From assembly GCA_017463935.1 (NCBI GenBank), contig JAFUEM010000036.1:1-36479 (forward strand): DNA of 36,479 bases, given 5' to 3'. Both the position numbers and the translations under genes were made by a program. The notes beneath the pieces are model-generated. The model was not told where the DNA came from, made no database searches, and saw nothing but the letters and a program-made list of their open reading frames with translations. The stretch is from Kiritimatiellia bacterium (lineage in GTDB: Bacteria > Verrucomicrobiota > Kiritimatiellia > RFP12 > UBA1067). This document shows positions 7,511 to 26,342 of the stretch, in pieces. Positions within the stretch are counted from its first letter, which is position 1, and the number at the start of each line of letters is the position of its first letter.

Positions 7511-7531
7511 ATAAAAAGGCGAGAGGATGTG

Positions 7532-7936: not shown

Positions 7937-7964
7937 TCTACATGTTCTACACGGCTATAATCTA
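7928..7964 (-). repeat. Dispersed repeat, inverted copy closing the GxxExxY cassette
   Basis: Read on the minus strand, 7942-7962 gives GATTATAGCCGTGTAGAACAT, and the copy continues to 7928 with 9-base units. It forms an inverted pair with the copy at 7381. It is followed at 7973-7989 by a short direct repeat (CTCTGCTT/CTCTGCGTT). Confidence 0.7.
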
Positions 7965-7998
7965 ATTTGCCTCTCTGCTTCTCTGCGTTAAAACACAA

Positions 7999-9171: not shown

Positions 9172-9213
9172 TAATAGTTGAGCACAATGCCCCATGGGAC
9201 GGGTAAGATCAAT

Positions 9214-9429
9214 TCATTGTAAAGCGAAGCAGATCCATTTCGAGATTGATGTCGCGTTCGGTATCCGAAAGCGGACTTTGGTCGTGTGACTCGATGGGGC
9301 CGTGTCCAGCAGGCGAGGGGGCTTCTGTTGCGCGAACGAGATAGGGCTCGTGCCTTGTTTGCGAATGAAAGTGTGGAAATGCGCGATATATTGCGATAGG
9401 TTTTTAACCGGCAAAGAATTTTCATTTCT
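9214..9429 (-). pseudogene. Possible degraded AraC-type HTH remnant in the gap between two genes
   Basis: The 258-base gap 9172-9429 has no intact gene. On the minus strand it reads LSQYIAHFHTFIRKQGTSP and later RLLDTAPSS and NATSISKWI. The order resembles the AraC/XylR HTH consensus (F-R-G-SP, then RLL-T-S, then SFSRWF). A neighbouring frame gives AFGYR, where AraC proteins have AFGF, so at least one frameshift would be needed. The similarity is weak and judged by eye; chance is possible. Confidence 0.3.
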
Positions 9430-10062
9430 ATGAAATACCAATTATCAATGTTTATTTTGACTGTCATGAGGATGGTGTGGGGCAAAATCTACTGCCGTTA
9501 TGCCGTCGCCAAGACATGGTTTCTGAAAAAAGCATGGGGGATCGATGCAGGTCGCGGCTGTCGGTTCGAGGGGCGGACGATCATTTCCACCCGCGAACGC
9601 GGGCAGGTTGTGCTTGGTGATGGCGTCGTATTCAATTCGCGCCCCCTTGGAAACCTTGCCGGATTGTCTCGCCCGACTATCATTGATTGCCACGCTTCAG
9701 GTGCGAAGTTGATGTGCGGGGACAACAGTGGATTCTCATCGGTGACCATCAATTGTCGCTCGTCGATAACCATCGGGAGAAATGTCAAGGTCGGCGCGGA
9801 TGTCAGAATCTACGATAATGACTTTCATTCTCTGGAGCCGCAGTTCCGGCGTTCCGGGGACGATGCGAATCATATTCGCGCTAAACCGATAGTCATTGAA
9901 GATGACGTTTTTATTGGCGCGGGTGCGATCATCCTAAAGGGCGCCCGCATTGGCGCCAGATCTATTGTGGCGGCGGGAAGCGTAGTCTTCGGCGGAGAGA
10001 TTCCGCCTGATTCCCTTGTCAAAGGAATATCCAATATCCTGCGAAGTCGTGGGGAAGGGTAA
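9430..10062 (+). CDS. Hexapeptide-repeat acyltransferase (WbbJ/CysE-like, left-handed beta helix)
   Basis: The product (210 aa) has an irregular N-terminal region with a hydrophobic or amphipathic start, and then hexapeptide repeats from about residue 60. The catalytic region contains VRIYDNDFHSLEP (His in NDFHS) and then IVIEDDVFIGAGAIILKGARIG and IVAAGSVV, the left-handed beta-helix coils. Such enzymes O- or N-acetylate sugars of the repeat unit from acetyl-CoA. It is followed after one base by the next glycosyltransferase, so the two are co-transcribed. The acceptor sugar is unknown. Confidence 0.88.
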   Translation: MKYQLSMFILTVMRMVWGKIYCRYAVAKTWFLKKAWGIDAGRGCRFEGRTIISTRERGQVVLGDGVVFNSRPLGNLAGLSRPTIIDCHASGAKLMCGDNSGFSSVTINCRSSITIGRNVKVGADVRIYDNDFHSLEPQFRRSGDDANHIRAKPIVIEDDVFIGAGAIILKGARIGARSIVAAGSVVFGGEIPPDSLVKGISNILRSRGEG

Positions 10063-10063
10063 T

Positions 10064-11353
10064 ATGCGAATAATGTGGCTTGTTCCCATGATTTTGCCCG
10101 AATTCGCGAAGCGACTCAATATGCCGGTCGTCAATTCGGGCGGCTGGATGCCCTCGCTTGTGGATGGCGTTCGTAAGTTTGCACCCGATATTGAGTTGAC
10201 TGTGGTGGGCGAAGGCCCGGCTTGCCGCGACGAGGAGATAGATGGCGTCCGTTATGTCGCGCTCGGGCCAGCAAGACTACGAGCGCGGCAGAAACGGATT
10301 TCGGCGGAGTTCGAAGCGAGACTGGAAGAACTCGTTTTCGAGTTGAAGCCGGCTGTCATACACATACATGGCACGGAATCGCTCTGGAATGGGCTGTCCG
10401 ATGGATTCCTTTCGCGTCACCGCGCACGTATCGTCGCCTCCTTGCAAGGCATAATCACGGGGTGTGCTCCACATTACGCCGGCAATCTCGCTTCGTCGGA
10501 AGTATGGAACGCAAGGAACATTCCGAACATTCTCCTCACTCGTTACACCATTCAACGAGCCGCATCCTACTGGCGGAACCGCCTTGCAAAGAAGGAGGAA
10601 CGGTTCTTTTCGTCTATTGCAAACTTTCTGGGCCGGACAGATTGGGATCGGACGTGGACCAGGTATCTCAACCCCGAGGCCAATTACTATCATGTCGGGG
10701 AAATCATGCGTTCACCTTTCTATCGCGGCAAACGCGACGGCGGCAAGGTGGTCCGCCACTCGATCTACTGCGGCGCGGCGTTCAACTACCCGCTGAAAGG
10801 CGGTCATTGGCTCTTGCGGGCGGTTGCCGCCTTGAAGCGGCAATATCCCGATGTGCAGCTTCGGGTCGCCAACGCCAGAAAATCCGCCAAGCCCAAAGGC
10901 ATCGTGGACTGGCTCCGGCAAGGCGAGTACAACCGCTATCTGTCAAGACTCGTTGATGAACTCGACATTGAAGGAAACGTTGTTTTGCTGCCCGCGCTTT
11001 CCGGGGACGAGGTGCGCGAAGAACTGGAAAAGGCCGAAGTCCTGTGCATACCGTCCGCATGCGAAAACAGCCCGAACTCCATCGGCGAGGCGATGCTTGC
11101 GGGATGCCCGGTCGTCGCGACGAACGTGGGAGGCGTAAGTTCCATCATCGAGGACGGCGAGACCGGCCTGTTGGTTCCGTCCGCCGATCCAGCGATGCTT
11201 GCCGATAGGATAGCCTACCTCTTTGGAAACCGAGATGCTGCATTGCGCCTTTCGGAGACGGCTTATAAGGTGGCGGAGGCGCGATACAGCCCGCAAAAAG
11301 TCGTGGCGGATTTGATGTCTGCATACTGCAAAGTGCAGGGGGCGGTGTCATGA
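10064..11353 (+). CDS. Glycosyltransferase family 4
   Basis: The product (429 aa) has a GT-B fold: N-terminal VVNSGGWMPSLVDGV, a middle segment IHIHGTESLWN, and a C-terminal donor domain with YPLKGGHWLLRAVA, VVLLPALSGDEVREEL and the EX7E region ENSPNSIGEAMLAGCPVVATNVGG. The ATG at 10064 has GGGGAAGGG (10051-10059) at good spacing; the upstream frame start at 10016 would overlap the acetyltransferase. It contributes one sugar to the repeat unit. Its 3' end overlaps the following gene as ATGA. Confidence 0.92.
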   Translation: MRIMWLVPMILPEFAKRLNMPVVNSGGWMPSLVDGVRKFAPDIELTVVGEGPACRDEEIDGVRYVALGPARLRARQKRISAEFEARLEELVFELKPAVIHIHGTESLWNGLSDGFLSRHRARIVASLQGIITGCAPHYAGNLASSEVWNARNIPNILLTRYTIQRAASYWRNRLAKKEERFFSSIANFLGRTDWDRTWTRYLNPEANYYHVGEIMRSPFYRGKRDGGKVVRHSIYCGAAFNYPLKGGHWLLRAVAALKRQYPDVQLRVANARKSAKPKGIVDWLRQGEYNRYLSRLVDELDIEGNVVLLPALSGDEVREELEKAEVLCIPSACENSPNSIGEAMLAGCPVVATNVGGVSSIIEDGETGLLVPSADPAMLADRIAYLFGNRDAALRLSETAYKVAEARYSPQKVVADLMSAYCKVQGAVS

Positions 11354-12396
11354 AGGTTGTCTTGGCCGATCCGATATCATGGACCGTTTCAGGCAGGCAA
11401 ACGGGGCATTATCGCGCCGTGGCGGAGAATTATGCTGCGATGTTCAAAGGACGGGATTTTGCCATAGCAGGAGGTCCGGTTTACAAGAATTGGTGCGACA
11501 AGTTGATGGAACTCCCCTTCAACCAGTCAAGCGACGCCGGACACTTGAAGAACAAGATCGCCGCGTTGCGGAATTGCCGTGTTCTGTTCCGCGAAGCTGG
11601 AGAGTCCGCCGTCGTGTTGCAGTCGGTCGGTTTCGCCACCGAGTTGCTGGGCATTCTGCTTTTTGCAGACAAGAAGACAAAAGTGTTTTTGATCCAATAT
11701 CAACCATTGGGTTCACGGTCGTTGTTCTGTCGAATTCTCTGTTCTCTTGCAAGACGCAAGATAAGTGGGGTTGTTTGTCCGAACGACGAGGTCGGCAGAT
11801 CATTCGGTGTCGATTATTGTGTAGTCCCGGACTATATCTACACGGGGGATGGCAAGCTCGTTTCCAAGGCTGGAAACGATCCTCGATACGATTTCGTCAG
11901 CGCAGGCATGCAACATCCCAACAAGGGGACTCTTGCATTCGCGGAAAAAGTGGCATCATCGCCACACACAATGCTCATTGCCGGCCATGTGGCGAATGCG
12001 GAATTGAAGCAAAAGTTTACGGTTCTTGCGGCGAACCATCCCAATATCCATCTTGATCTGCGGTATCTGAATGAAGAAGAATATGCTTCGACGGTTGCAA
12101 GCGGGCGGTATGCCGTGATGAACTATACGGATTCGTATGCAACTCGTTCCTCTGGCGTTGTATTCGATTTTGTGTATAGGAGGGTGCCGGTAGTGGGACG
12201 GGCGTGCAAAGCGCTCCAGTTGATATCCGACAGTCGCATGGGGTATTTGTATCGTAGTCTGGCCGAGATCGATTTGGAGAAATTGATGGACGATGAAGTC
12301 TATGACGAATACAAACGCAATATAGAAGCGTATCTGAGGAATGCGAATTCGCAAGTCAAGGCACTATTGCAATTTGTGGCAGAGGAGAATAGATAA
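11350..12396 (+). CDS. Putative GT-B glycosyltransferase
   Basis: The product (348 aa) begins MKVVLADPISWTVSGRQTGHY and has the layout of a short GT-B enzyme. A middle segment (VVCPNDEVGRSFGVDYCVVPDYIY) resembles the interdomain linker with the pre-donor-domain strand, and the end has SGVVFDFVYRRVPVVGRA where GT4 enzymes carry their EX7E region. The canonical Glu residues are not well conserved (FDF in place of E..A), so it belongs to a divergent group. Start and stop both overlap neighbours (ATGA and TAATG), which places it firmly in the operon. Confidence 0.75.
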   Translation: MKVVLADPISWTVSGRQTGHYRAVAENYAAMFKGRDFAIAGGPVYKNWCDKLMELPFNQSSDAGHLKNKIAALRNCRVLFREAGESAVVLQSVGFATELLGILLFADKKTKVFLIQYQPLGSRSLFCRILCSLARRKISGVVCPNDEVGRSFGVDYCVVPDYIYTGDGKLVSKAGNDPRYDFVSAGMQHPNKGTLAFAEKVASSPHTMLIAGHVANAELKQKFTVLAANHPNIHLDLRYLNEEEYASTVASGRYAVMNYTDSYATRSSGVVFDFVYRRVPVVGRACKALQLISDSRMGYLYRSLAEIDLEKLMDDEVYDEYKRNIEAYLRNANSQVKALLQFVAEENR

Positions 12397-13811
12397 TGGT
12401 TGGCTTGAATCTTGATGTCGCCGAGTATTCCGCGCAGGAAAAACGTTCCTTGCTGCTGCATACTGTCGTTGCGCTGTTATGCGTACCCCTTTACATGCTG
12501 GGGCCGACACTCATAGCATACGTACTGACCCCGTATTTGATATGGATGATATTCAGGGGACATAGCGTTTACTACATTCCGCTCATGGTCCATACTTTTT
12601 TAGGGTCTCAGCAGCGGACGATCATGTTGATGGGCTGCTTCATTTATGTCTGTATTCATTATGCAGAACTGAAGCGTTACCGGCTCGGTCTGCTGTTTTT
12701 CATCTATCTGCTTGGCCTCCCGTTCTATGTCTGGTTTACGATAAAGCGGTATCAGTACCAAGGATTCGGCGGAATGTTCGAAGGGTTGGGGTGCTATCTG
12801 ACATACGCGGCATTTTTCTGGGGCGTATTGACAGGTGGAACGGTAAGAAAGTCTTTGTTTACGTATTTGTTTTGGTTGTCGATTGTCTGGGTCGGAGAGT
12901 TCTGCCTGGGGGCCATTGAACCCTCACGTTTCTACCATTGGGCCATCCCATGTGTTTTGACCATATCCTTTTGGTCGCTCTTGAAACGAGGCGCGACAAT
13001 TCCAATCGCAATTGCGGTTTTCTCGATGGTAGCCACGGTTTTTGCACTGGCGAGCTTCTTCCGGTATTTTGCGCACACCGCCACATTTACGCAAATCGGA
13101 GTCGGCATGATGGCTTGCGCATATCTGGCATTGTACAGATGGCTCCCGAAGTTGAAAATCCTGTTGAACCCCATTGTTGTGTTCGCACTGTTGGCATTCT
13201 CGCTTTTCTCGACAATGGCAAAATTCGACGCAAACACTATCGACTTTTCCGTTGCATATGAGGATATCAAAGTGAAAGACTTTGATTCTTTCATAGAGCG
13301 CTGGAATCGCAAATCGATTGGCGATAGAGGATGGCTCTGGAGAGCGACATGGAACACGATAGTTCGGCAATTCAAAGACAACCCTTTTTATGTTTCCCCG
13401 GAATTCCAAATGGGCGAGGTCGAGCGTGATTTGAAAGACGGCAGACATATAGTTCAAACCGTCGATCTTGCAGCTCACAACACGTTTCTGGAATTGCTGC
13501 GCAATTATGGCTTGTACGGCGGAGGCTTGATGTGCCTCCTGTATATCATGATTCCAATCATGTGTTTCCCGAAACGTCCATTTACAGACTTCTTCAACAC
13601 ACCGTATGCGCCTGTCTTTGCCTTGTGCCTTGGAGAGATTTTCGTTGGCGGGCAAGGTGGACAGTACACCGTTCTGCCGCAGTTCTCGTTTATCTTGTTC
13701 GGTCTTTATGGTTTCATGTATCGTTCGGATTTCAGCGATTGCAATATTTTCAGGTGGGCGAGCCTGCCCGTAAATCAAAGCAGACAGGTCGCCATGGACT
13801 GCCGGCCGTGA
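12396..13811 (+). CDS. wzy: Wzy-like polysaccharide polymerase / O-antigen ligase-type membrane protein
   Basis: The product (471 aa) has about 10-11 hydrophobic segments. Between two of them, about residues 285-375, lies a large soluble loop with many charged residues (KDFDSFIERWNRKSIGDRGW). This is followed by AAHNTFLELLRNYGLYGGG, the HN.FLE.L..YG pattern at the end of the periplasmic loop of Wzy/WaaL-type proteins. It should polymerise flipped repeat units in the periplasm. The ATG overlaps the upstream stop (TAATG) and its own stop overlaps a GTG of a glycosyltransferase stub. Polymerase and ligase cannot be separated by sequence, but the locus context favours Wzy. Confidence 0.82.
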   Translation: MVGLNLDVAEYSAQEKRSLLLHTVVALLCVPLYMLGPTLIAYVLTPYLIWMIFRGHSVYYIPLMVHTFLGSQQRTIMLMGCFIYVCIHYAELKRYRLGLLFFIYLLGLPFYVWFTIKRYQYQGFGGMFEGLGCYLTYAAFFWGVLTGGTVRKSLFTYLFWLSIVWVGEFCLGAIEPSRFYHWAIPCVLTISFWSLLKRGATIPIAIAVFSMVATVFALASFFRYFAHTATFTQIGVGMMACAYLALYRWLPKLKILLNPIVVFALLAFSLFSTMAKFDANTIDFSVAYEDIKVKDFDSFIERWNRKSIGDRGWLWRATWNTIVRQFKDNPFYVSPEFQMGEVERDLKDGRHIVQTVDLAAHNTFLELLRNYGLYGGGLMCLLYIMIPIMCFPKRPFTDFFNTPYAPVFALCLGEIFVGGQGGQYTVLPQFSFILFGLYGFMYRSDFSDCNIFRWASLPVNQSRQVAMDCRP

Positions 13812-13879
13812 AGAAGGTTCTTTTATTCCATCCGGCGCTTGCGCCGTATCGCGTCGATTTCTTCAATCTTCTTTCGTGA
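13808..13879 (+). pseudogene. N-terminal stub of a glycosyltransferase (23 aa)
   Basis: A GTG overlapping the polymerase stop (GTGA) opens a frame reading KKVLLFHPALAPYRVDFFN and then stops. This is the typical first strand and loop of a GT4 enzyme, closely like the start of the intact gene at 15138 (KILWVNPSFLDYRIPFYDEM). The remaining roughly 360 codons are gone. The stop lies 15 bases before the next gene's ATG. I read it as the relic of a deleted glycosyltransferase; a small regulatory peptide is less likely. Confidence 0.7.
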
Positions 13880-13893
13880 ATGGAGTGGAGTCA

Positions 13894-15141
13894 ATGAAAA
13901 TACTTCTGTCGGCATTTGCGTTTTCCCCGTATCGCGGCAGTGAATGCGCCGTGGGGTGGAACATCGCCCGGAACCTTGCCCGGTTCCATGACGTGACGGT
14001 GATTGCGGGCGACCTCGGAGACGGCGAGAATGATTATGCGCGATATGTCGCAGAGAACGGTTCGGTGCCGCGTCTGACGGTCGATTATGTCCCGCCGTCG
14101 CGTTTCACTGTGTTTTTGGAGCGATTGCACCGCTTGCCGGGCCTATGGGGGCTTTACTACTTGGCCTACAACCTTTGGCAGCGAAAGGCTTGCAAGAGGG
14201 CGAAGGAACTGTTGAAAACTGAAAAGTTCGACCTTGTCCACCAGCTGACGATGATTGGCTACCGCGAGCCGGGATACATGTGGAAGCTCGGACTGCCGTT
14301 TTTCTGGGGCCCGGTCGGCGGGGCTCCAAACGAGCCGATTGCCTTTCGGCGGATGTTTTCTTGGCGCGGGTGCGTAAAGGTGGTATTGCGGACCGTCCTG
14401 AATGAAATTCAGAAGCGGATATGTCTTCGGGCGAAAAGAGCTGCGCGGAAAGCAAGTAAGATATGGGTGGTAACCGATGCGGACTATCGAATGGTTCACG
14501 ATTTATGGGGCGTCGAGTGCGATCGCATGGTGGAGGCGGGAAGAGACGATTCAATCGCCGGAAAGATCCGCTCGTATGACGGCGCAAGTCCGTTGAGAAT
14601 CGTGTGGAGCGGCATACATACATCGCGAAAGGCGCTGCCCATCCTCCTGCATGCTCTTTCGAGGCTCGAAGAGGGAATGGAAGTCGGGGTCGATGTCTTG
14701 GGCGAAGGGCCTGAAACAGCCAAATGGAAGTCGCTTGCCGCCAGTCTTGGCGTGTCCTCCCGTTTGACGTGGCATGGCAGGTTGCCGAGGATGGATGCGT
14801 TGAAATTGATGGCGCGGGCGCATGTGTTGGCGTGCCCTTCCATCAAGGAGGCCTCGTCTATTGTCGTGATAGAGGCACTGTCCCTCGGATTGCCGGTCAT
14901 TTGCCATGATGCCTGCGGAATGGGAATCGTGGTGACCGACAAGTGCGGCTTCAAGATTCCCCTCAGAAATCCTGAAACAAGCATCAGCGGCTTCGCAACC
15001 GCGATACGAACCATCTTGGAAAGGCCGGACTTGGTGGAGCAGAAGTCTGCCGCCGCCATTGCACGAGTCGGCGAGTTGACGTGGCATTCAAAGGTGTCGG
15101 CGTTTTCGGCTGCATATTTGGAAAGACGCGAAGCAAAATGA
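13894..15141 (+). CDS. Glycosyltransferase family 4
   Basis: The product (415 aa) starts MKILLSAFAFSPYRGSECAVGWNIARNLAR, with the GSE..VGW motif of a GT4 subgroup. FFWGPVGGAPNEP follows in the middle and SIKEASSIVVIEALSLGLPVICHDACG at the donor site, where the two Glu of EX7E are visible. GGAGTGGAG (13882-13890) precedes ATG 13894; the in-frame GTG at 13876 is less likely. The gene follows the 23-aa glycosyltransferase stub and its stop overlaps the next ATG (ATGA). Confidence 0.92.
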   Translation: MKILLSAFAFSPYRGSECAVGWNIARNLARFHDVTVIAGDLGDGENDYARYVAENGSVPRLTVDYVPPSRFTVFLERLHRLPGLWGLYYLAYNLWQRKACKRAKELLKTEKFDLVHQLTMIGYREPGYMWKLGLPFFWGPVGGAPNEPIAFRRMFSWRGCVKVVLRTVLNEIQKRICLRAKRAARKASKIWVVTDADYRMVHDLWGVECDRMVEAGRDDSIAGKIRSYDGASPLRIVWSGIHTSRKALPILLHALSRLEEGMEVGVDVLGEGPETAKWKSLAASLGVSSRLTWHGRLPRMDALKLMARAHVLACPSIKEASSIVVIEALSLGLPVICHDACGMGIVVTDKCGFKIPLRNPETSISGFATAIRTILERPDLVEQKSAAAIARVGELTWHSKVSAFSAAYLERREAK

Positions 15142-16298
15142 AACAAAGAAAAATTCTGTGGGTAAACCCTTCGTTCCTGGATTACCGCATCCCGTTTTAC
15201 GATGAGATGAATAAATGTTGCAATGGCGGATTTCACCTTATATATAGCAAAAATCGCGTTCCCGAGCGTTGCCGGTTGAATATAGGCAGAAGGCTTGGCG
15301 GCAATGCAATCGGCATAGAAAAGGAAGTTTGCTATGGCTCCGCGACGACTGCGGAGTTCGCAAATCGCGGAGTGACGATCCCTTTTCCGAAAGGACTTTA
15401 CAGGAAAATTGCATCCGTTGAACCTGATTTGCTTGTGGCAGAGGGGTTTTTCCAGTTTACTCCCTGGGCGTTGCTGTATTCGATAGTCCATCGCAAGCCT
15501 CTGTTGATTGCCTACGAACGTACAGCGCACACCGAACGCAATTGCCCGTTCTGGCGGACTGCATATAGACGTTTCGTCAATCTGTTCGTCGATGGATATG
15601 TTGTGAATGGTCGATTGACAAAAGAGTATCTCATGTCGCATGGCGTGAGGGAAGAAAGCATATTCACTGGCGGCATGTGCGCGGACAGCACCGGCTTGGC
15701 CGATAGCGTGACCGCGTTTTCATCCTGCGAAAGGGATTGTTTCCGCAATCAGGTTTTTGGTTCGCGCGTTTCCGGCTTGATTTACATCTATGTCGGGCAG
15801 ATGATTCATCGAAAGGGTGTTTCAAGTCTGATAGAGGGATGGCGAACGCATATTGCAAAACACGGGGCAGACAAGCTTTTGCTTGTCGGCGATGGCCCAG
15901 AATTGGAAAATTGCCGGAAAATTGCCGAGACAATGGGTTCGATTGTGTTCGCCGGCGCCGTGGATTATTCTTTGATACACAAGTACTACGCGATATCCGA
16001 TGTGTTTGTCATGCCGACATTGGAGGATAATTGGAGTCTGGTCGTTCCGGAGGCGATGGCTTGCGGGTTGCCTGTCGCGTGCTCGATTTACAATGGATGC
16101 CACCCGGAATTGGTGCGCAAAGACGTAAATGGAATAACTTTTGACCCGCTGCTCCCGGAATCGGTTGTCATGGCTCTGGATTATTTTCATAATGCGGATT
16201 TGAGAAAACTAGGCCGGGCGTCAATTGAAATCGAGCGCAACTACAACCCTGCGCATGTTGCCGCCAATGTAATGAGGGCGATTGATTCGTGTTTATAG
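15138..16298 (+). CDS. Glycosyltransferase family 4
   Basis: The product (386 aa) begins KILWVNPSFLDYRIPFYDEM, and contains the acceptor-domain segment YERTAHTERNCPFWR and the donor domain YVGQMIHRKGVSSLIEGW, LLVGDGPELE and MPTLEDNWSLVVPEAMACGLPVACS, which holds the EX7E pair. The true start is the ATG at 15138 inside the ATGA overlap; the frame is open further upstream but within the preceding gene. Its N-terminus resembles the stub at 13808, so the locus once held two members of this subgroup. Donor sugar unknown. Confidence 0.92.
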   Translation: MKQRKILWVNPSFLDYRIPFYDEMNKCCNGGFHLIYSKNRVPERCRLNIGRRLGGNAIGIEKEVCYGSATTAEFANRGVTIPFPKGLYRKIASVEPDLLVAEGFFQFTPWALLYSIVHRKPLLIAYERTAHTERNCPFWRTAYRRFVNLFVDGYVVNGRLTKEYLMSHGVREESIFTGGMCADSTGLADSVTAFSSCERDCFRNQVFGSRVSGLIYIYVGQMIHRKGVSSLIEGWRTHIAKHGADKLLLVGDGPELENCRKIAETMGSIVFAGAVDYSLIHKYYAISDVFVMPTLEDNWSLVVPEAMACGLPVACSIYNGCHPELVRKDVNGITFDPLLPESVVMALDYFHNADLRKLGRASIEIERNYNPAHVAANVMRAIDSCL

Positions 16299-16359
16299 CG
16301 ATATGCAGGAAACCGTGCATGCTGTTGTTTGTTCTTTATTTGTCTTCAGGAGGCCGTAG

Positions 16360-17244
16360 ATGTTTATGCGAGATAGGGACATGAATGTGGGAACGTCGAG
16401 AAATGCAGCTGTCGAATCTTTGCGCGTCATAATGATGCTTGGCATCGTCGCCTGCCATGTGATTGGCCAGGGCGGACACGACAATCATCTTGGAATAGAC
16501 AGGATTTGCGGATGCGGAGTCGTCGGCTTCATGTTTATTTCAGGCTACTATGGGATGAAATGCAGCGTCAAGAGGATTTTCCGGTTGTTGGGAATTGCTT
16601 TGTATTGCAATTTTATCGTGGCGGGGCTTGGTGTTTTGTCGGAACCGTCGGTCTCGTATTGGGACGTATTCCTCTACAATTGGACGCACGGTTCCGGATG
16701 GTGGTTTTTGTGGGGTTATTTGATAGTCATGCTTCTGTCGCCTTTGATCGAAGCGGCGTTTTCGACGCGCCGGCTGGATTTTGTCGTATCGGTCTGCATA
16801 TTGGTTTTCGGATGGCAGTTTGCAACTGCCGTTCCATTTCTTCGCAATGTGATTCCCGTCCCTAACGGTTTTGGCGGATTGTCGTTTGTCATGCTGCTGG
16901 GGATTTATGTATTTGCCCGGGCATGCAGCTGCTTTGAATGGTTGCGCCATCTACCCCGCAGAACGGCCATGCTCGCGTTTGCGATATCGGCTGTGTTTGT
17001 GGCGATTGGATTCTCGCAGTATTCGTCTCCGGCCGCATTGCTACTTGGCGCAAGTGCGTTTTCGATTGCGCTTTCGTTCGAGCGGACTCCTCTGTATGTC
17101 GGGAAAGTATGTCGATGCCTGGTTCCGTCGCTTTTTTCTGTCTACCTCATTCACACGAACATTCAAGGATTTGAACTTATTTCCCGAATGGAAGATTATT
17201 TCTTTGATACGTTGAACATTCAAGGGGGGGGTATTTACTTGTGA
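16360..17244 (+). CDS. Acyltransferase-3 family membrane protein, C-terminus cut by a G8 tract
   Basis: The product as read (294 aa) is an integral membrane acyltransferase (PF01757). It has RNAAVESLRVIMMLGIVACHV with the catalytic-type His in the first span, then about eight further hydrophobic segments and SVYLIHTN near the end. AGGAGG (16348-16353) is well placed before ATG 16360. The frame passes through eight G (17224-17231) and stops 10 bases after the tract. With nine G it would continue as YLLVICIVFCAGIII and DLPRRLCVSL, a normal last membrane helix, and stop at 17330 in an ATGA overlap with the next gene. The gene is therefore probably phase-variable and shown here in the short state, unless the tract was miscounted. 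Confidence 0.85.
   Translation: MFMRDRDMNVGTSRNAAVESLRVIMMLGIVACHVIGQGGHDNHLGIDRICGCGVVGFMFISGYYGMKCSVKRIFRLLGIALYCNFIVAGLGVLSEPSVSYWDVFLYNWTHGSGWWFLWGYLIVMLLSPLIEAAFSTRRLDFVVSVCILVFGWQFATAVPFLRNVIPVPNGFGGLSFVMLLGIYVFARACSCFEWLRHLPRRTAMLAFAISAVFVAIGFSQYSSPAALLLGASAFSIALSFERTPLYVGKVCRCLVPSLFSVYLIHTNIQGFELISRMEDYFFDTLNIQGGGIYL
17224..17231 (+). repeat. G8 tract, probable phase-variation site
   Basis: Eight G interrupt the acyltransferase frame near the last membrane helix. Adding one G restores an open frame of about 30 further codons with the expected hydrophobic segment. Its context, TTCAA before and TATTT after, resembles that of the G10 tract at 9159 (TTCA before, TAATA after). Confidence 0.75.
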
Positions 17245-17326
17245 TTTGTATAGTGTTCTGCGCAGGCATCATTATTGATCTACCGAGACGCCTGTGCGTG
17301 TCTTTGGCTGATAGATTAATCAATAG

Positions 17327-18124
17327 ATGATTGTACATAATCAAAATATGGGCAACGGCAAGAATTGTAACTCCGGCATAGACATATTGAAGGTCTCGGC
17401 CTGTTTTGGCGTCGTTTTCCTGCACTTCGGGAATGGTGGCGGGATTGCGACGCTATCCGTTCCGGTATTCATGTTCGTATCGGCTTGTCTTTGCGGACGA
17501 TTGTTTACTGATGGCACATGGCGCGAGTTGTTCATCAGGCTCAGGCGGTTGTATGTTCCGTTTGCCGTATGGGGTGTGTCGTATTGGCTGATGTTCTGCT
17601 TGTTCAACAGGAGTTTTGATATAGTCGTCTTGATAAAACAGTTGGCCATTGGTGCGCCGGCTTGTCCCGTCCTTTACTTTCTCTTTCTTCTTGCGTGCTA
17701 TTCCATCATGCTGTTTTATGTCGGGCACATGCGTCGCAGGTTTTGGGCGCTTCCCCTGGTTTTGGTTATTTGTCTCGCGCTCCAATATTCAGGGTTGAAT
17801 GCAACAGTGTTCAATCGTTACTCATTCGATTTTAGGATGGTACTGGGTAGGTTTGTGGAATTGCTGCCGCCTTGTTTCGGAGGCGTCGCTGCGACACGTC
17901 TTGCCGCGCTTGTCTTCGGGGTCTATCTTTGGCATCCTGTGTTCAAGGGTGCAGCAATGGTAGCTGTTTCACGTTTGGCTCCATCACAAATGTGGTCGGT
18001 ATTCCCGGTCACTGTGTGTCTGGTGTTTGTTGCGATCTATATTGTTTCATTATCTAGGATCGGCTCAGTTTCTGTTGGCACACAAGCAGGTAAATTCAGG
18101 AAAGGCCTATATGATAAAGAATAA
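17327..18124 (+). CDS. Acyltransferase-3 family membrane protein, shortened
   Basis: The product (265 aa) has the family start IDILKVSACFGVVFLHFGNG, with His in the first span, followed by VPVFMFVSACL and several membrane helices, and LVFGVYLWHPVF near the C-terminus. Family members are usually about 330-350 residues. Between FRMVLGRFVELLP and AALVFGVYLWHP the usual two to three helices are missing, so a deletion of roughly 70-90 codons with the frame kept is likely. Whether it is active is doubtful. The ATG at 17327 overlaps the restored (nine-G) stop of the previous gene as ATGA, and its end overlaps the next gene by 14 bases. Confidence 0.8.
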   Translation: MIVHNQNMGNGKNCNSGIDILKVSACFGVVFLHFGNGGGIATLSVPVFMFVSACLCGRLFTDGTWRELFIRLRRLYVPFAVWGVSYWLMFCLFNRSFDIVVLIKQLAIGAPACPVLYFLFLLACYSIMLFYVGHMRRRFWALPLVLVICLALQYSGLNATVFNRYSFDFRMVLGRFVELLPPCFGGVAATRLAALVFGVYLWHPVFKGAAMVAVSRLAPSQMWSVFPVTVCLVFVAIYIVSLSRIGSVSVGTQAGKFRKGLYDKE

Positions 18125-18902
18125 TGATTGCACTGTCTTGGTAATTTCTTGCGATGAATACCAAGATATGATTCCTCCTTTTTCTGCTCTTTGGCGGAAA
18201 AACTGGCCTGATTGCCCGTTTGAAGTTGTTATGGTCACCGAAAACGAGGCCGGTTCGCCTGCCTGTGGGGTGTTTGACAAGGTGATATATACGCATAAAA
18301 CGGTCTCATGGAGCGAAAGGGTTGCAACTGCATTGCGCCAGATAGATACACCTTTCGTGTTGCTTTTTCTAAACGACTATTTTGTATCGGGGAAGGTGCC
18401 TACCTCCAAGGTGTTAATTCGTCTTGAGCAGGCCATAAGGTTTAACGCCTTAAACCTGCGGCTTATTCCAATGCCGAGGGCGCAATTGGCATTCGACTCC
18501 GGCGATGAGGAATTACCATTACGCGAATATATCAAGAACACGGCCTATTGCATCGCTACACAGCTTGGTTTCTGGGATAAGAAGTTTCTGCTTCGAATGG
18601 TGGAACGGACAAATAGTGCATGGGAATTCGAAAGAAAAGGGTCGTTAATGGTTGGTGATGAGAAATACCCCATACTCAGTGTTGTCCAAAAGGAGTTTCC
18701 GTTTCTTGATGCGGTACACAAGGGGTTTTGGGAAAAAGAAACCGAGAAACTCCTTGCGGCCAATGCCGTGAAGGTAGATTTTTCAAGGCGTGGGTTCGTT
18801 CCCGCGTCAGTGAAAGTAAAAGAATATCTGAGGGCGAAGGTTGTTCGGATGTTGCCAAGAGCATTTTTGCTTCGCCTTCGTTTGAAGATCAAAGGAGCAT
18901 AA
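18111..18902 (+). CDS. Putative glycosyltransferase (GT-A-like), function not certain
   Basis: The product (263 aa) starts NNDCTVLVISCDEYQDMIPPF. It contains PFVLLFLNDYFVSGKV about residues 80-95, where a hydrophobic strand ends in an acidic pair-like motif (NDYF) similar to the FL.DDYF signature of a group of polysaccharide-locus transferases. No classical DxD is obvious. The ATG at 18111, preceded by CAGGAAAGG, is preferred; the upstream open frame lies inside the acyltransferase. Its position between acyltransferases and the CDP-sugar genes supports a transferase of the CDP-derived deoxysugar, but that is inference. Confidence 0.55.
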   Translation: MIKNNDCTVLVISCDEYQDMIPPFSALWRKNWPDCPFEVVMVTENEAGSPACGVFDKVIYTHKTVSWSERVATALRQIDTPFVLLFLNDYFVSGKVPTSKVLIRLEQAIRFNALNLRLIPMPRAQLAFDSGDEELPLREYIKNTAYCIATQLGFWDKKFLLRMVERTNSAWEFERKGSLMVGDEKYPILSVVQKEFPFLDAVHKGFWEKETEKLLAANAVKVDFSRRGFVPASVKVKEYLRAKVVRMLPRAFLLRLRLKIKGA

Positions 18903-18904
18903 AA

Positions 18905-19681
18905 ATGAAAACAGTCATTCTGGCGGGTGGTTTTGGTACCCGCATCAGCGAAGAAAGTCAGTTCAAGCCCAAACCCATGGTGGAACTTGGTGGGATGCCT
19001 ATTTTATGGCATGTGATGAAGATATACTCTCATTACGGATTCAACGATTTCATAATCTGCGCCGGATACAAGCAGCATGTGATAAAGGAGTATTTCGCCG
19101 ACTACTTTCTGCATACAAGCGACATCACGTTCGATTTCACCAGAGGTAGTCAGGATGTGGTCGTGCACCGGCACTCGGCAGAGCCGTGGCGTGTGACGGT
19201 CGTCGATACCGGTCTTAATACGCTAACCGGAGGAAGAGTCAAACGCGTAAAGGAGTATCTTGGCGGAGAGAGATTCTTTCTGACATACGGCGATGGCGTC
19301 GGAGATGTCAATATCGGTAACCTCCTTGAGTTCCACAAAGCGCATGGTCGGCTTGTGACGCTAACTTCTGTAAATCCAGGGCAGCGGTATGGCAGTCTGG
19401 ATATCGACGAGTCCGGACGGATCAGGGAGTTCCGGGAGAAGGCCAAGTCTGATGGTGCCCTGATCAATGGCGGATTCATGGTCTGCGAGCCAGGAATGAT
19501 CGACTACATCGACGGGGACAGCCAAATGCTGGAGCGTGAGCCGTTGGAGCGTATAGCGAAATCTGGAGAGCTGATGGCGTACCGGCATGACGGATTCTGG
19601 CAGCCGATGGATACACTGCGAGAGAAACAGATGCTTGAGAAGATGTGGAATGATGGGGAGGCACCATGGAAAGTCTGGTGA
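18905..19681 (+). CDS. rfbF: Glucose-1-phosphate cytidylyltransferase
   Basis: The product (258 aa) is a near-standard RfbF/DdhA. It has LAGGFGTRISEE (nucleotide-binding loop), KPKPMVELGGMPILWH, FFLTYGDGVGDVNI (the metal-binding Asp), and LINGGFMV and GFWQPMDTLREK at the end. It forms CDP-glucose from CTP and glucose-1-phosphate (EC 2.7.7.33), the first step of CDP-linked deoxysugar synthesis. ATG 18905 follows AAAGGAG at close spacing. Its 3' end overlaps rfbG by 16 bases. Confidence 0.96.
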   Translation: MKTVILAGGFGTRISEESQFKPKPMVELGGMPILWHVMKIYSHYGFNDFIICAGYKQHVIKEYFADYFLHTSDITFDFTRGSQDVVVHRHSAEPWRVTVVDTGLNTLTGGRVKRVKEYLGGERFFLTYGDGVGDVNIGNLLEFHKAHGRLVTLTSVNPGQRYGSLDIDESGRIREFREKAKSDGALINGGFMVCEPGMIDYIDGDSQMLEREPLERIAKSGELMAYRHDGFWQPMDTLREKQMLEKMWNDGEAPWKVW

Positions 19682-20754
19682 ACACTTACCACGGGAAGAG
19701 TGTTCTTGTAACAGGGCACACGGGCTTCAAGGGTTCGTGGCTTTGCGAGTGGCTTCTTTCGCTTGGCGCGGAGGTGCATGGTCTCGCCCTGCCGCCGCCG
19801 ACAAACCCTAGCCTCTTCAATCAGCTTAGGCTCGCCAAACGGATAAAATCGCACACTATCGGTGACATTCGCGATTTGAAGACCGTAAAGGTTGTGATGC
19901 GGCGCGTCAAGCCCGACTTTGTGTTCCATCTTGCCGCGCAGCCATTGGTGAGGTTGTCTTACAACAAGCCGGTAGAGACATTTGACACGAATATCATGGG
20001 CACGATTCATGTTCTCGAGGCTGCGAGACAAGTGTTCTGCGAAGGAAAAGCAAGGAGACAATGCTCGGTCATCTGCATAACGACGGACAAATGCTACGAG
20101 AACAAAGAAACGACACGCCCGTACAAAGAAGATGATCCCATGGGGGGGTACGATCCATACAGCTGCTCCAAAGGATGCGATGAACTTGTGATATCATCGT
20201 ACCGTCGTTCGTTCTTCGGCAGGCCTGAATCGCCCGTGTGGGTCGCTTCAGCGAGGGCCGGTAATGTCATAGGCGGCGGAGATTGGGCATTGGATAGGAT
20301 AGTACCGGATTGCATGAGGGCAATTGCGAAGGGCGAGGCAATTCCCGTGCGCAATAAGATATCGACGCGTCCTTGGCAGCATGTTCTCGAGCCGCTTGGC
20401 GGATATCTGATGCTTGGTGCGGCGCTTGCGTCGCGAACGCGCTTTATGGACTACGCCGGCGGATTCAACTTCGGACCCAATCCGAAGGCGAATCGCTCGG
20501 TCGAGGATCTGGTGACGGAGATACTCAAAACGGCAGAGGGGGAGTGGATAGACAAAACGGAACCAGATGCCGTTCACGAAGCAGGACTGCTCAATCTCGA
20601 CATCCGCAAGGCGAGGCGCATTCTCGGATGGATGCCAAGATGGGGTTTCGAGACGACGGTCGTCAACACGGTGAGGTGGTATCTCGAAGTCTCCAACGGC
20701 GGCAATGCGGCGGATATCACGCGCTGCCAGATATCTGAATATTGCAACAATTAA
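19666..20754 (+). CDS. rfbG: CDP-glucose 4,6-dehydratase
   Basis: The product (362 aa) is an extended SDR of the RfbG/DdhB type. It has VLVTGHTGFKGSWLCEWL (NAD-binding GxxGxxG), FHLAAQPLVRLSY, CITTDKCYEN, and DPMGGYDPYSCSK carrying the YxxxK catalytic pair. ARAGNVIGGGDWALDRIVPD follows, a highly typical segment. It converts CDP-glucose to CDP-4-keto-6-deoxyglucose (EC 4.2.1.45). The G7 run at 20142-20148 encodes part of the conserved MGGY and is not taken as a slippage site. Confidence 0.96.
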   Translation: MESLVNTYHGKSVLVTGHTGFKGSWLCEWLLSLGAEVHGLALPPPTNPSLFNQLRLAKRIKSHTIGDIRDLKTVKVVMRRVKPDFVFHLAAQPLVRLSYNKPVETFDTNIMGTIHVLEAARQVFCEGKARRQCSVICITTDKCYENKETTRPYKEDDPMGGYDPYSCSKGCDELVISSYRRSFFGRPESPVWVASARAGNVIGGGDWALDRIVPDCMRAIAKGEAIPVRNKISTRPWQHVLEPLGGYLMLGAALASRTRFMDYAGGFNFGPNPKANRSVEDLVTEILKTAEGEWIDKTEPDAVHEAGLLNLDIRKARRILGWMPRWGFETTVVNTVRWYLEVSNGGNAADITRCQISEYCNN

Positions 20755-20757
20755 CAA

Positions 20758-21342
20758 ATGTCTGATATGATTACAAAGTTTTCATTCAATGAAACGGAAA
20801 TTCCTGGGCTGATAGAGGTCACTTCGTTCAATGCCGATGACATTCGCGGCTGTTTCACCAAGGACTATTCCAAAGAAGTGTTTGAGGCAAATGGTATTCA
20901 TCATGATCTTGCGGAGGTGTTCTACACCACGTCGCACAAGGGGGTGATAAGGGCACTGCATTTCCAGCGGGTCAAACAACAGCCGAAGCTTGTTCGGTGC
21001 ATCTGGGGGCATGTGTGGGATGTTGTTGTGGATTTACGCAGGGACTCGCCATCATTCAAAAAGTGGCTGTCGTTCGACTTGACGAGGGAGAATCGTCGGG
21101 AAGTGTTGATACCGGCAGGTTGTGCACACGGGTACCTTGTCCTGGATGAGTCCGTAGTCAGCTACAAGTGCGGCGAGAAGTTCTACGGCGAATACGACGA
21201 CGGCATCCTCTGGAACGATCCGGAACTCGCCGTCGCCTGGCCGTTGGACAGAGTCGGTGGAGCAGAGAAGGTTATTCTTGCCGACAAGGATAAGAATCTG
21301 CAGTCATTTGCGCAGTTCATAAAATCATACGGAGGTTTTTGA
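20758..21342 (+). CDS. RmlC-like sugar-nucleotide 3,5-epimerase family protein
   Basis: The product (194 aa) follows the RmlC pattern: VIRALHFQ with the catalytic His, KLVRCIWGHVWDVVVDLR, LIPAGCAHGYLVL, YKCGEKFYGEYDDGILWNDP and then AVAWP. RmlC enzymes epimerise C3 and/or C5 of 4-keto-6-deoxy nucleotide sugars. Lying directly after rfbF and rfbG, with no dTDP-sugar genes in the window, it most likely acts on CDP-4-keto-6-deoxyglucose. Which carbons are inverted cannot be read. It overlaps the next gene at TGATG. Confidence 0.9.
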   Translation: MSDMITKFSFNETEIPGLIEVTSFNADDIRGCFTKDYSKEVFEANGIHHDLAEVFYTTSHKGVIRALHFQRVKQQPKLVRCIWGHVWDVVVDLRRDSPSFKKWLSFDLTRENRREVLIPAGCAHGYLVLDESVVSYKCGEKFYGEYDDGILWNDPELAVAWPLDRVGGAEKVILADKDKNLQSFAQFIKSYGGF

Positions 21343-22172
21343 TGGCAAAGATTTTGATTGCTGGGGCGGGCGGCTATGTTGGTAGGAATCTTGTTGCGGC
21401 GCTTGATGGCGAGGTGGAAGTAACAGGCATTGATATCGCACCAGGATACATTAAGCCAGAGGATGTCAAAACGCTTGAAGGGCTATACGATGTTTTCTAT
21501 AACTTTGCTTGGGTTGGGAAGGGCGGCCCTCAAAGGGCAGATTACAATTTGCAAATGACCAACGTCAAGAATGCGCTGGATTTCTACAAAGAAGCTGTGA
21601 GGTTGGGTTGCAAGCGATATATCTGCGCTGGTACAATTGGTGAACTCATGGTTGAGTTGCCGGAATGTGCGAAGATTCGTTCTCAGAACTTTATCTACAT
21701 ACAGGCAAAGAATTTCTTGCACAGGGTGCTCAACTCAATTGAGGAACCCGATAAATGCCGCGTAATATGGGCTAGGCTTGGGAATCTTTATGGGGGCGGA
21801 GACTCTGGCGGAAATCTCGTTGATTATACCCTGAAAAAGCTTGCGGCAAACGAGAAGGCCATTTTTGGCCCGGCGGAACAGCCATATGATTTTGTTCATG
21901 CGCTTGATGCCGCCCATGCGCTTGCTGCTATTGGTATTGCGGAGCGAATTGTCTCAAGCGAGTTTTATATTGGTTCGGGTGATGTGCGTCTGTTGAAAGA
22001 TTATCTACTTTCAATAGGTAAGATTATGGGGAAGCCGAATCTAATTGAAATTGGTGGCCGTCCTGATGATGGTACGAGGTATCGAGCGGAATGGTTTTCA
22101 ATTGCATCTTTAATGAAAGAGACGAAGTATCGACCGACTATTCCATTTGAGAGTGGCGTACGTGCACTATAA
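21342..22172 (+). CDS. NAD(P)-dependent epimerase/dehydratase (SDR), likely CDP-4-keto-6-deoxyhexose reductase
   Basis: The product (276 aa) has ILIAGAGGYVGRNLVAAL (Rossmann GxxGxxG), VTGIDI, YNFAW and ICAGTIGE. YIQAK matches YxxxK, and ARLGNLYGGGDSGGN and YDFVHALDAAHAL follow, typical of extended SDR sugar enzymes. GGAGG at 21331-21335 sets ATG 21342. As the fourth gene of the rfbF-rfbG-epimerase set it probably reduces the 4-keto group, giving the finished CDP-6-deoxyhexose. An epimerase function is an alternative. Confidence 0.85.
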   Translation: MAKILIAGAGGYVGRNLVAALDGEVEVTGIDIAPGYIKPEDVKTLEGLYDVFYNFAWVGKGGPQRADYNLQMTNVKNALDFYKEAVRLGCKRYICAGTIGELMVELPECAKIRSQNFIYIQAKNFLHRVLNSIEEPDKCRVIWARLGNLYGGGDSGGNLVDYTLKKLAANEKAIFGPAEQPYDFVHALDAAHALAAIGIAERIVSSEFYIGSGDVRLLKDYLLSIGKIMGKPNLIEIGGRPDDGTRYRAEWFSIASLMKETKYRPTIPFESGVRAL

Positions 22173-22195
22173 CCTGAATGTTTGAGTTCCCACCA

Positions 22196-22261
22196 ATGGC
22201 AAATAGACTACCATATTTGGATGCGCTAAAAGGTTTTTTGATGCTGCTTGTAATATGGTGA
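22196..22261 (+). pseudogene. N-terminal stub of an acyltransferase-3 gene (21 aa)
   Basis: ATG 22196 opens MANRLPYLDALKGFLMLLVIW followed by TGA. LPYLDALKG..MLLVI is the usual first-helix start of acyltransferase-3 proteins (consensus YLDalKGi.mllVv.gH), ending exactly where the catalytic His should come. The rest of the gap to 22368 has no further recognisable part, apart from a single unit of the dispersed repeat on the minus strand (22346-22358). It is the third such stub in the locus. Confidence 0.65.
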
Positions 22262-22368
22262 CTATTGTGCAGGGACAGCACCGAGACATTACAAGTTCAT
22301 GTGCGCAATCAAGGAGCTGTGATGGTCAATGGTACATATGTGAATACGTTCTACACGGTCAATAAATC

Positions 22369-23577
22369 ATGAAGATTCTTCTTGTCCATAACTACTACGG
22401 GTCATCGGCACCCTCCGGCGAGAACAAGGTGTTCGAAGCGGAGAAATCCATGCTGGAGAGGCATGGGCATGAGGTTGAGGTCTATACACGGCATTCGGAT
22501 GAGATACGATGTGGCAATGCAATTAAGCGAATTTGGGGTAAAATAAAAGGGGCGTTGTGTACGGTCGGCAATCCTTTTGCGGCACTGGCGGTTGCAAAGA
22601 AGTGTAGGGAATTCAAGCCGGATGTCGTTCACTTCCATAACACCTTCCCGCTTATCAGCCCGTTGGCGGTTCGCGCTGCGAGCAGGTATGCGCCGGTCGT
22701 GATGACTCTACACAACTATCGAACGGCTTGTGCGGCAGGCGTTCCGACGAGGGACGGCAAGGTTTGTTCGCTGTGCCTGGATAAGAGATGTGTGTGTGAT
22801 GGAATCAAGCATAGTTGCTATCGTGGAAGTCTGCTCGCAACGTTGCCATTGGCAATGAACATTACGTTGTATAGGAAAAAACTGGCGAGGTGGGTGGCTC
22901 GGTTTATCGCATTGAGCGAGTTTCAAAGGCGAAAGATGGTGGATGTTGGTTTGCCGAAAGAGAAGATTGCCGTGAAGGGAAATTTCATCAGCCGTGCAGA
23001 ACGTGCAGAACGCGTCGAAAAGAAGGATCAGATTATGTATGTCGGACGCCTCTCGCCGGAGAAGGGAGTCTCGACGCTTATAGAAGCCTGGCGCATCATC
23101 GGGCTTTCGACAGGCTGCAAGTTAATCTTGATTGGCGACGGCGACAACCGAAGAGAATACGAGTCGTTGGCATTTGGCTTGGGCGTGGAATTCATGGGCA
23201 ATAAATCAAATGATGTCGTGCGAGAGGAGATCGCAGCATCTAAGGCTGTTGTCTTGCCAAGCGAGTGTTGGGAGGGCATGCCCATGACGATTCTTGAAAG
23301 TTTCGCCGAGGGGACTCCTTGCGTTGTCAGCAATCTTGGGGCATTGCCGGAATATATACGCAACGGAGAACTTGGGGAAGTATTTGAGGCATGCAATATC
23401 GAGGCGTGTGCAGCGGCAATAAAGCGTTTGCTTGACCGACCCGACTATGCTGTGATGTGTGCTGCGGCAAGGCAAGAGGCCGAGACCAAGTATTCGGAAG
23501 AGGCTAACTATAAGCGGCTGATGGAGATTTATTTGAAGGCTATTGGACAATCAGACCATGACGGCAAACAATCATAG
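22369..23577 (+). CDS. Glycosyltransferase family 4
   Basis: The product (402 aa) has MKILLVHNYYGSSAPSGENKVF at the start, VHFHNTFPLISPLAVRAA, and a Cys-rich acceptor segment (VCSLCLDKRCVCDG). The donor domain has MYVGRLSPEKGVSTLIEAW, LILIGDG and PSECWEGMPMTILESFAEGTPCVVSNLG with the EX7E pair. In the linker between the two domains the sequence SRAERAERVEK is encoded by a copy of the dispersed repeat (22990-23018). There is no clear ribosome binding site before ATG 22369. The 3' end overlaps the tandem cyclase-homology gene by 20 bases. Confidence 0.92.
   Translation: MKILLVHNYYGSSAPSGENKVFEAEKSMLERHGHEVEVYTRHSDEIRCGNAIKRIWGKIKGALCTVGNPFAALAVAKKCREFKPDVVHFHNTFPLISPLAVRAASRYAPVVMTLHNYRTACAAGVPTRDGKVCSLCLDKRCVCDGIKHSCYRGSLLATLPLAMNITLYRKKLARWVARFIALSEFQRRKMVDVGLPKEKIAVKGNFISRAERAERVEKKDQIMYVGRLSPEKGVSTLIEAWRIIGLSTGCKLILIGDGDNRREYESLAFGLGVEFMGNKSNDVVREEIAASKAVVLPSECWEGMPMTILESFAEGTPCVVSNLGALPEYIRNGELGEVFEACNIEACAAAIKRLLDRPDYAVMCAAARQEAETKYSEEANYKRLMEIYLKAIGQSDHDGKQS
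22990..23018 (+). repeat. Dispersed in-frame repeat, copy inside a glycosyltransferase linker
   Basis: AGCCGTGCAGAACGTGCAG continues with AACGCGTCGA. The core is the same as at 7385 and 7538, in the same reading frame (S-R-x-E-x-x-E-R-V). It lies at the junction of the two GT-B domains, a position that tolerates insertion. Confidence 0.7.
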
Positions 23578-25441
23578 ATACATAGCATGCTTCTTTGATA
23601 TGTTGGGGCAGTCTGCGGCATATCTAAAGTTGAAAGATCTAAATACACCAAAAGAAGCAATAGATGCTGTTGTTTCTAAAGCCACTGAGACAATGGCAGT
23701 GGCAGAACATTTACGTGGAATTGTTGCGGATATAGAATCGAATCCTATTGCGATTGTAGAGCAGTTAAAAAGGAACGCAGGAACTATTTTTGAGTCTATT
23801 TCGGTCGACACTTTTCTTGCAGGAAAGCCACGAGAAGGTGAATGGGGTGTTGTCATATTTTCTGATGGAGTTCTGTTTTACATCAAAGAAGGAAATCTAT
23901 GGGCAGGTCTTTTGTTTATAACGTGGCTTACCAGACTATCTGAATTGATGGTTAGGTTGCATTCTGATTTGATATCGGTTCGAGGGGCCGTATCTGTAGG
24001 TGAGGCTTGGCCGGTTAAGGGCGGTTCATTATGCGGCCCACTAATTGATCAATTGGATAGAATGGAGAAAGATTCGGCGTTCTATTCAAGGATAATAGCG
24101 TCGCATCAATTTGAGGAATATATTAGTGAGCTTGTCGAATTATCTGATAAATCAGAGAAGGTAGATAATCTCTTTTTTCTGGCAAGAGATTTGTTTGATG
24201 CGGATATAGACGGGATATTGATGCTTGACATACTTTCGGTGCATATGTTGAATCGCTTAAAGGCAGAAGGACGTGCCTTGGACTATCTGAAGCGATATAA
24301 GAGAGCGGCAACAACGATATCGGATGAAGCAAATGGATTGTCAGAGAATATTTCGTTATCTAAAGTGGCAGTGGATACAAGTACGATTTCATGGAAATAT
24401 CACTTCCTTGACGCATATTATGGTTCGCGGTCTGAGATTATCGACAATGCCTTGGAGCAGTCTTCAAAGGGAACGAATAACGTTATAGATGTGAATGAAG
24501 GCGGCATATATAAAGAAGTCGGAGAGTATCTTGTTTGCTATTTTAGAATTGAAAAGATGCGGCATTTCCCAGATAAGTACCACCAAGAATACAATTACGA
24601 TGGAATATTTGATGCTGTTGATTCCGGGGAAGATACGGCTATATTGCTTCAAAGTTTAATCGCTCAGTTGCATCTGTCGATTGATTCGTGGAAAAAAGAT
24701 CCAAAGAGATTGTTCAGAACTAGCATTGTAGATCACAACATTTGGCCCGATCAAAGCGGTTTTGAGCGGGAAACAGATGTGTTGTCAGTGGGAGTAGAAC
24801 AAATTGGCAATTACTTATTATTCTATGTCCGAAATGATTGTCCATTGGCGTTGCTCTTTTTCGTCTCTTGCGTCCAGATGGTTTCTGTGATGACATTAGA
24901 CGCATTGATTCGCGACCATGTTGTTATGGTGGCCTGTACATTAGGAAATGGATGGGAAATTGCGCCTAATCAACTGATGGGGCCATGCATTGGTGAGGCA
25001 CATAAACTGACAAACGTATATGCATTCTATCCGCGTATTGTAATGTCTCCAGCGCTTCAGGACATAATTGCTAGATCAAGAACTTGTATTACATTCTTTG
25101 GGTCGAATGAGATGTATCCGATTGTACAGGATGTTGATGGAGTTTATTTTTGGGATTATTTGTCGGAGATCAATAAAGCTCTATTCGAATCAAGAAGTAT
25201 TCCGTTGGATTTTCATGGGGCAGTTGAATTTGTCTATACTAGGCTTTCAAGACGTATGGGATTTTTTGCAAAGTGCGCCCGACGAAAAGAACTGTCGGCG
25301 TCAAAGGTAAGGCCGATGTTGGTATTGCAGTTCTATCTGCAAGAGAAGTTGAATAAGTGCGGTGTTAATTGCGATGCGATTAAAGAACAAATAATTGAGG
25401 AAATGGATGCTTTGCCTTTGATGAATCACAGAGGTGTGTGA
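23558..25441 (+). CDS. Tandem cyclase-homology-domain protein (Pycsar-cyclase-like), copy A
   Basis: The product (627 aa) has two similar halves. Domain 1 has YIACFFDMLGQ (Asp14), VIFSDGVLFYI (Asp103), SVRGAVSVGEAW (about 140-151) and CGPLIDQLDRMEKDSAFYSRII; this is the order seen in class III nucleotide cyclases of the Pycsar PycC type (FxDxLG, FSDS, RGxxxxG, GPA..E.......PRI). Domain 2 (from about 322) reads GEYLVCYFRIEKM, VEQIGNYLLFYV, MVACTLGNGWEI and FYPRIVMS: the same scaffold, but with no Asp at either metal position. It lacks membrane spans. A paralogue lies at 31853. The gene is visibly more AT-rich than its neighbours and starts 20 bases inside the preceding gene. Cyclase activity is a prediction; no product is known. 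Confidence 0.7.
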   Translation: MTANNHRYIACFFDMLGQSAAYLKLKDLNTPKEAIDAVVSKATETMAVAEHLRGIVADIESNPIAIVEQLKRNAGTIFESISVDTFLAGKPREGEWGVVIFSDGVLFYIKEGNLWAGLLFITWLTRLSELMVRLHSDLISVRGAVSVGEAWPVKGGSLCGPLIDQLDRMEKDSAFYSRIIASHQFEEYISELVELSDKSEKVDNLFFLARDLFDADIDGILMLDILSVHMLNRLKAEGRALDYLKRYKRAATTISDEANGLSENISLSKVAVDTSTISWKYHFLDAYYGSRSEIIDNALEQSSKGTNNVIDVNEGGIYKEVGEYLVCYFRIEKMRHFPDKYHQEYNYDGIFDAVDSGEDTAILLQSLIAQLHLSIDSWKKDPKRLFRTSIVDHNIWPDQSGFERETDVLSVGVEQIGNYLLFYVRNDCPLALLFFVSCVQMVSVMTLDALIRDHVVMVACTLGNGWEIAPNQLMGPCIGEAHKLTNVYAFYPRIVMSPALQDIIARSRTCITFFGSNEMYPIVQDVDGVYFWDYLSEINKALFESRSIPLDFHGAVEFVYTRLSRRMGFFAKCARRKELSASKVRPMLVLQFYLQEKLNKCGVNCDAIKEQIIEEMDALPLMNHRGV

Positions 25442-25467
25442 TGTGGAAGAATATTTGAGAATATATT

Positions 25468-26244: not shown

Positions 26245-26291
26245 TTGTTAGCAGGAGTTGTCGCAATTATGAGATTTTTTCGCAAGTTCTA

Positions 26292-26321
26292 TTGCCTTCG
26301 GCAGGTGAGATGTGATATAAT
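26292..26321 (+). promoter_or_regulatory. Promoter of the AAA ATPase/RloB pair
   Basis: TTGCCT (26292-26297) and TATAAT (26316-26321) are separated by 18 bases, 22 bases before the ATG. The -10 lies inside TGTGATATAAT, the same extended element seen before mnmA and the last gene. The pair therefore appears to have its own sigma-70-type promoter. Confidence 0.7.
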
Positions 26322-26342
26322 ACACATCGTTTGAGGTGGAAG

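Follow-up and report, generated by a model that had tools for sequence, protein, structure and literature searches.

The stretch of DNA analyzed here (the window, 36,479 bases) is contig C140 of a metagenome-assembled genome (MAG, labeled G000) that comprises 354 contigs and is 85% complete. Judging by its named homologues, which are from Kiritimatiellae/Kiritimatiellaeota, Lentisphaeraceae and rumen (RUG) MAGs, the host is presumably a gut bacterium of the class Kiritimatiellia in the phylum Verrucomicrobiota. On its + strand lies a surface-polysaccharide gene cluster (4435..31714) with glycosyltransferases, a pyruvyl transferase, sugar-nucleotide (CDP/dTDP-sugar) enzymes, WecG and a weak Wzy-type match. 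Within this cluster is an AT3 acyltransferase gene (16360..17244, + strand) that, as read, encodes a truncated protein of 294 amino acids. It belongs to the AT3 family, as it matches PF01757 with 60.5 bits against a curated cut-off of 31 (E = 1.9e-16). AT3 domains have ten membrane helices (PMC9558356, PMC9833829), and the membrane core with its last helix is incomplete in this frame: the match to a profile of homologues ends at model position 289, and the missing core segment is found in the next frame. The frame changes at a run of eight G on the coding strand (17224..17231), at codon 289. So, the gene contains a homopolymer of at least 7 with gene pieces in different frames on either side of it, which is the arrangement of a contingency gene.

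The earlier note had the acyltransferase stop shortly after this tract and held that a single additional G would restore the protein's last membrane helix and end the frame in an ATGA overlap with the next gene. The position it gave for the tract is exact, and the 294-aa reading frame stops at most 13 nt beyond it. With 9 G, the protein runs on as YLLVICIVFCAGIIIDLPRRLCVSLADRLINR and reaches 323 aa, ending in NIQGGGYLLVICIVFCAGIIIDLPRRLCVSLADRLINR just before the stop, so that a hydrophobic last helix is regained. This continuation (17232..17330, + strand) comprises the helix, the sequence IIIDLPRR and a basic tail. In a hydropathy scan, the full-length frame adds one membrane segment, which is the strongest of all. 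Any tract length divisible by three reaches the frame that runs to 17330, while 7 G gives an unrelated C-terminus and a protein of 305 aa. The stop of the full-length frame (17328-17330) does overlap the start of the next gene at 17327 as ATGA (17327..17330, + strand). The further claim that the same coupling is used throughout the operon was overstated. Elsewhere, genes overlap by 4 nt at 6410, 11350 and 21339 (as TTGA in the third case) and by 1 nt at 2787 and 12396, and the remaining junctions are gaps or longer overlaps.

The next gene (17327..18124, + strand) encodes a second, shorter AT3 protein of 265 aa (PF01757, E = 2.4e-16, covering 2-199 of the 326 positions of the profile) and is possibly coupled translationally to the full-length frame of the first. 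An internal segment seems to be absent from this protein: its model match is short, yet a YLWH-type motif is still present close to the C-terminus.

The downstream piece is recognizably part of the same gene. All seven close homologues have an equivalent helix at their C-terminus, followed by a D-x-PRR motif. Also, a homologue profile in which the window's row lacked the downstream segment nevertheless detects that segment (E = 4e-4, model 286-328). As the helix and motif are common to all seven homologues and the profile matches, the extension is homologous and not a chance reading frame. Moreover, this match directly adjoins the main match of the same profile (2-289), so the AT3 gene is broken at the tract, with no other visible defect. 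Part of what the earlier note named as evidence against its reading was homologues that lack the last helix; we checked this part, and the helix is present in every one of the seven.

Poly-G tracts recur in relatives of this gene. Of the 97 AT3 hits that we obtained from 61 genus genomes, 7 carry a tract of at least 8, as compared to 0.74 expected from the rate for the genus (P = 1.3e-5), but this enrichment leans on one genome, G074, which supplies four of the seven genes. All seven tracts are G on the coding strand. In six of the seven genes the tract leaves the frame intact, and gain or loss of a single G truncates the protein. In G074, four of the six AT3 genes have G9 to G10, and one of them (G074:C1:64856-65866) has its G9 immediately ahead of the last helix, at codon 316 of 358, so that both the place of the tract and the consequence of a change are as in the window.

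At the level of the class, we considered the eight closest AT3 homologues, the window included, from 346 genomes (E below 1e-100). Five of the eight have a coding-strand tract of G8 to G11. Three of these genes are in frame and two (the window's and that of G202) are out of frame. The tract is near the start of the gene in three (G9 in frame, G10 in frame and G11 out of frame), in the middle in one (G11, in frame), and near the end in the window (G8, out of frame). Tract positions mostly differ, with the three N-terminal tracts at similar positions, and G030 has its G11 at a site where its close relative G011 has no tract. (The polysaccharide loci of G070 and G016 contain further coding-strand G12 tracts, in other genes.) Thus, tracts of differing lengths, both in and out of frame, are found among the relatives. 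Judging from these genomes, the repeated gain of tracts at different sites, in and out of frame, is as in contingency genes and would not be expected from random assembly errors or simple decay.

In the window itself, runs of A, T and C are all of 6 or less, and G runs of 7, 8 and 10 are present. By its length alone the G8 is only mildly unusual, with about 5 such tracts expected across the MAG (a rough extrapolation from run-length counts), so the weight of the case is in its position and homology rather than its length. Neither of the other two long G runs in the window is an obvious switch. The G10 (9159-9168) is at the extreme 3' end of a glycosyltransferase gene (7999-9171), and we rejected it as a second clear switch because the three phases give 390, 393 or 402 aa and alter tail residues only. 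The G7 (20142-20148) is ordinary coding sequence: it lies in a sugar-nucleotide dehydratase gene whose frame stays open and reads PMGGYDP.

The explanation that we favor, and consider probable, is that the AT3 locus is a slipped-strand contingency gene that was caught in the OFF state at 8 G. This was the reading of the earlier note, and it draws support from the recurrence of coding-strand poly-G in the AT3 family and the lineage, at varied positions and with lengths that are in or out of frame. Slippage during replication would add or remove G's, and we infer that it occurs reversibly in vivo at the G8 tract. A tract that is a multiple of three would give the complete AT3 protein (323 aa in the case of 9 G), including the conserved last helix. 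Other lengths would give truncated proteins, and the 8 G protein, which ends right after the tract, is likely inactive given that it lacks the last helix and DLPRR. In the 8 G form, translation also stops 83 nt short of the start of the next AT3 gene and the ATGA coupling is lost, which may weaken translation of that gene as well. Switching would then turn the decoration of the surface polysaccharide with acyl (probably acetyl) groups on or off between cells, if the polysaccharide is the substrate of this AT3 protein, as its gene cluster suggests. Against a switch, the G8 is short for this MAG, and genomes throughout the class are rich in long runs of G, some of which need not be switches.

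A second explanation is that the tract was miscounted: the majority of cells would have an in-frame tract, and the 8 G consensus would be an artefact of sequencing or metagenome assembly. The MAG is fragmented, and one of its contigs (C177, which duplicates C44) breaks off within a G tract, which indicates that assembly is fragile at such sites. Also, the sequence 3' of the window's tract looks intact throughout, as it would if the gene were whole. On the other hand, most tracts of the same family were assembled in frame even at 9-11 G, which is longer than G8, and in another pair of duplicate contigs, C56 and C171, two further tracts are both read as G8 in each copy, although the two contigs may share reads. 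Overall, we think that a miscount is unlikely.

Third, the gene could be a fixed pseudogene whose last helix is permanently gone from this lineage. It is broken as assembled, and there are other broken or incomplete homologues, such as one in G242:C13 that has internal stops. However, the sole visible defect is at a hypermutable tract, and the frame downstream retains the helix, the DLPRR motif and the ATGA overlap. We consider this marginally less likely still than a miscount. Finally, a stable 8 G gene could yield some full-length protein by programmed recoding, whether the ribosome shifts frame or RNA polymerase slips at the G tract. This is very improbable because, although homopolymers of at least 8 are typical of programmed transcriptional realignment (PMC3711429), there is neither a conserved shift site (the position of the tract varies among the homologues) nor a stimulatory structure (no significant RNA structure downstream of the tract, z = −0.44).

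A slipped-strand switch in an AT3 gene would have precedents: AT3 genes that undergo phase variation are already known, and so is a polysaccharide gene of the same phylum that switches through poly-G. In Akkermansia muciniphila, the exopolysaccharide gene Amuc_1413 has a G9 at which a change of one G truncates the protein; genomes have 8, 9 or 10 G, and both switching from G9 to G10 and loss of mucin binding were measured (PMC13055324). Amuc_2098, a capsule acyltransferase with a C10 tract, was described in the 2011 Akkermansia genome paper (PMC3048395). As in the window, these are G/C homopolymers within surface-polysaccharide genes of the same phylum, but Akkermansia belongs to another class, its switching was measured while ours is inferred, and Amuc_2098 is likened to our gene as an acyltransferase by its description. 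In Neisseria meningitidis, pglI encodes an AT3-SGNH O-acetyltransferase of the pilin glycan, and repeat slippage leads to glycans with or without acetyl groups (PMC11130364, PMC5445459). This too is an AT3 gene that is turned on and off by repeat slippage, but PglI has a fused SGNH domain and acts on a protein glycan, the phylum is unrelated, and switching was observed in paired isolates. Similarly, oafA of Haemophilus influenzae is a phase-variable AT3 gene for O-acetylation of lipooligosaccharide (PMC9558356) and so decorates a surface glycan, but the references of that review list it among genes with tetranucleotide repeats rather than a G tract.

The MAG also resembles Campylobacter jejuni NCTC11168 in having a genome-wide set of G/C tracts: 29 poly-G/C loci of at least 7 in that strain (PMC4965091) as compared to 45 in this incomplete MAG. 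C. jejuni differs in that its phylum is unrelated, its genome is smaller and AT-rich, and the changes in tract length were measured. In our literature searches, no earlier report linked Kiritimatiellota or Kiritimatiellae to phase variation or homopolymers. Poly-G phase variation of surface glycans has been studied mainly in pathogens and lately in Akkermansia, and our results would extend it to gut Kiritimatiellia, a class that is known almost only from metagenomes. Some truncated surface genes in MAGs from this class probably represent states of a switch, not pseudogenes or errors.

Of greater interest than the locus itself is the fact that such tracts recur within a single AT3 clade of the class. 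Poly-G of at least 9 is present in 190 of 193 sampled genomes of the class and in 186 of 195 sampled genomes of the phylum, so it is widespread in both, and we rejected the idea that it is confined to the genus. (Within the class, family f31 is very rich in tracts of this length, with 556 in the 3.0 Mb of G127, 341 in G210, 179 in G218 and 150 in G144.) Loss of mismatch repair was also rejected as the cause within the genus. MutS1 matches were found in 53 of 59 genus genomes and MutL exceeded its cut-off in 54 of 59; as mismatch repair is present, its absence does not explain the tracts. In the window's own MAG, MutS is in two pieces on different contigs, and we did not find a full MutL in the contigs of this 85% complete assembly, both probably because of its incompleteness. 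We suggest, tentatively and as something a little short of probable, that Kiritimatiellia have a large poly-G contingency system that acts on surface polysaccharides and surface proteins. In this view, poly-G switches arose repeatedly within the AT3 clade, whether at the start, in the middle or at the end of the gene, even though the genus has MutS and MutL, and some members of the class have hundreds of such tracts.

Across the window's MAG there are 45 tracts of at least 7 G and 29 of at least 8 G, many of them of 10-14. In the stretches of the MAG that we fetched, G/C runs fall off steeply up to length 6 and then show a tail at 8-14. These stretches were chosen for their tracts, so the tail is over-sampled, but the whole-genome counts are unaffected. 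Contig C222 has a coding-strand G11 (L092 7693-7703) in a cytidylyltransferase-oxidoreductase fusion gene, which is in frame and encodes part of a GGGAL stretch; the gene would be broken if a single G were gained or lost. In C121, a 726-aa repeat protein has a G tract at its signal peptide, and in C5, C134 and C189, tracts are upstream of surface proteins of about 1000 aa. These tracts are within or beside surface genes, but some others are close to ordinary genes, and switching need not apply to all of them.

Several smaller observations concern these loci. In C56, a G8 directly precedes the ATG of each of two tandem related genes of 914 and 985 aa (L081 8621-8628 and 11900-11907), in the position expected of a ribosome-binding site. 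Large surface repeat proteins beside G tracts (L077 1387-4692, L090 7927-11151 and L084 656-2836) end in similar short tails (GLVLVVR, GLIISFH and GLTIILR), which may serve as a signal for C-terminal sorting. Contig C209 terminates in a run of 24 G/C (L091 1-24), which is possibly an artefact of two-colour sequencing rather than real sequence. Finally, the window's polysaccharide cluster includes an AAA_21 ATPase gene followed by an RloB-like gene (26331-28296), a pair that resembles an anti-phage defence module.
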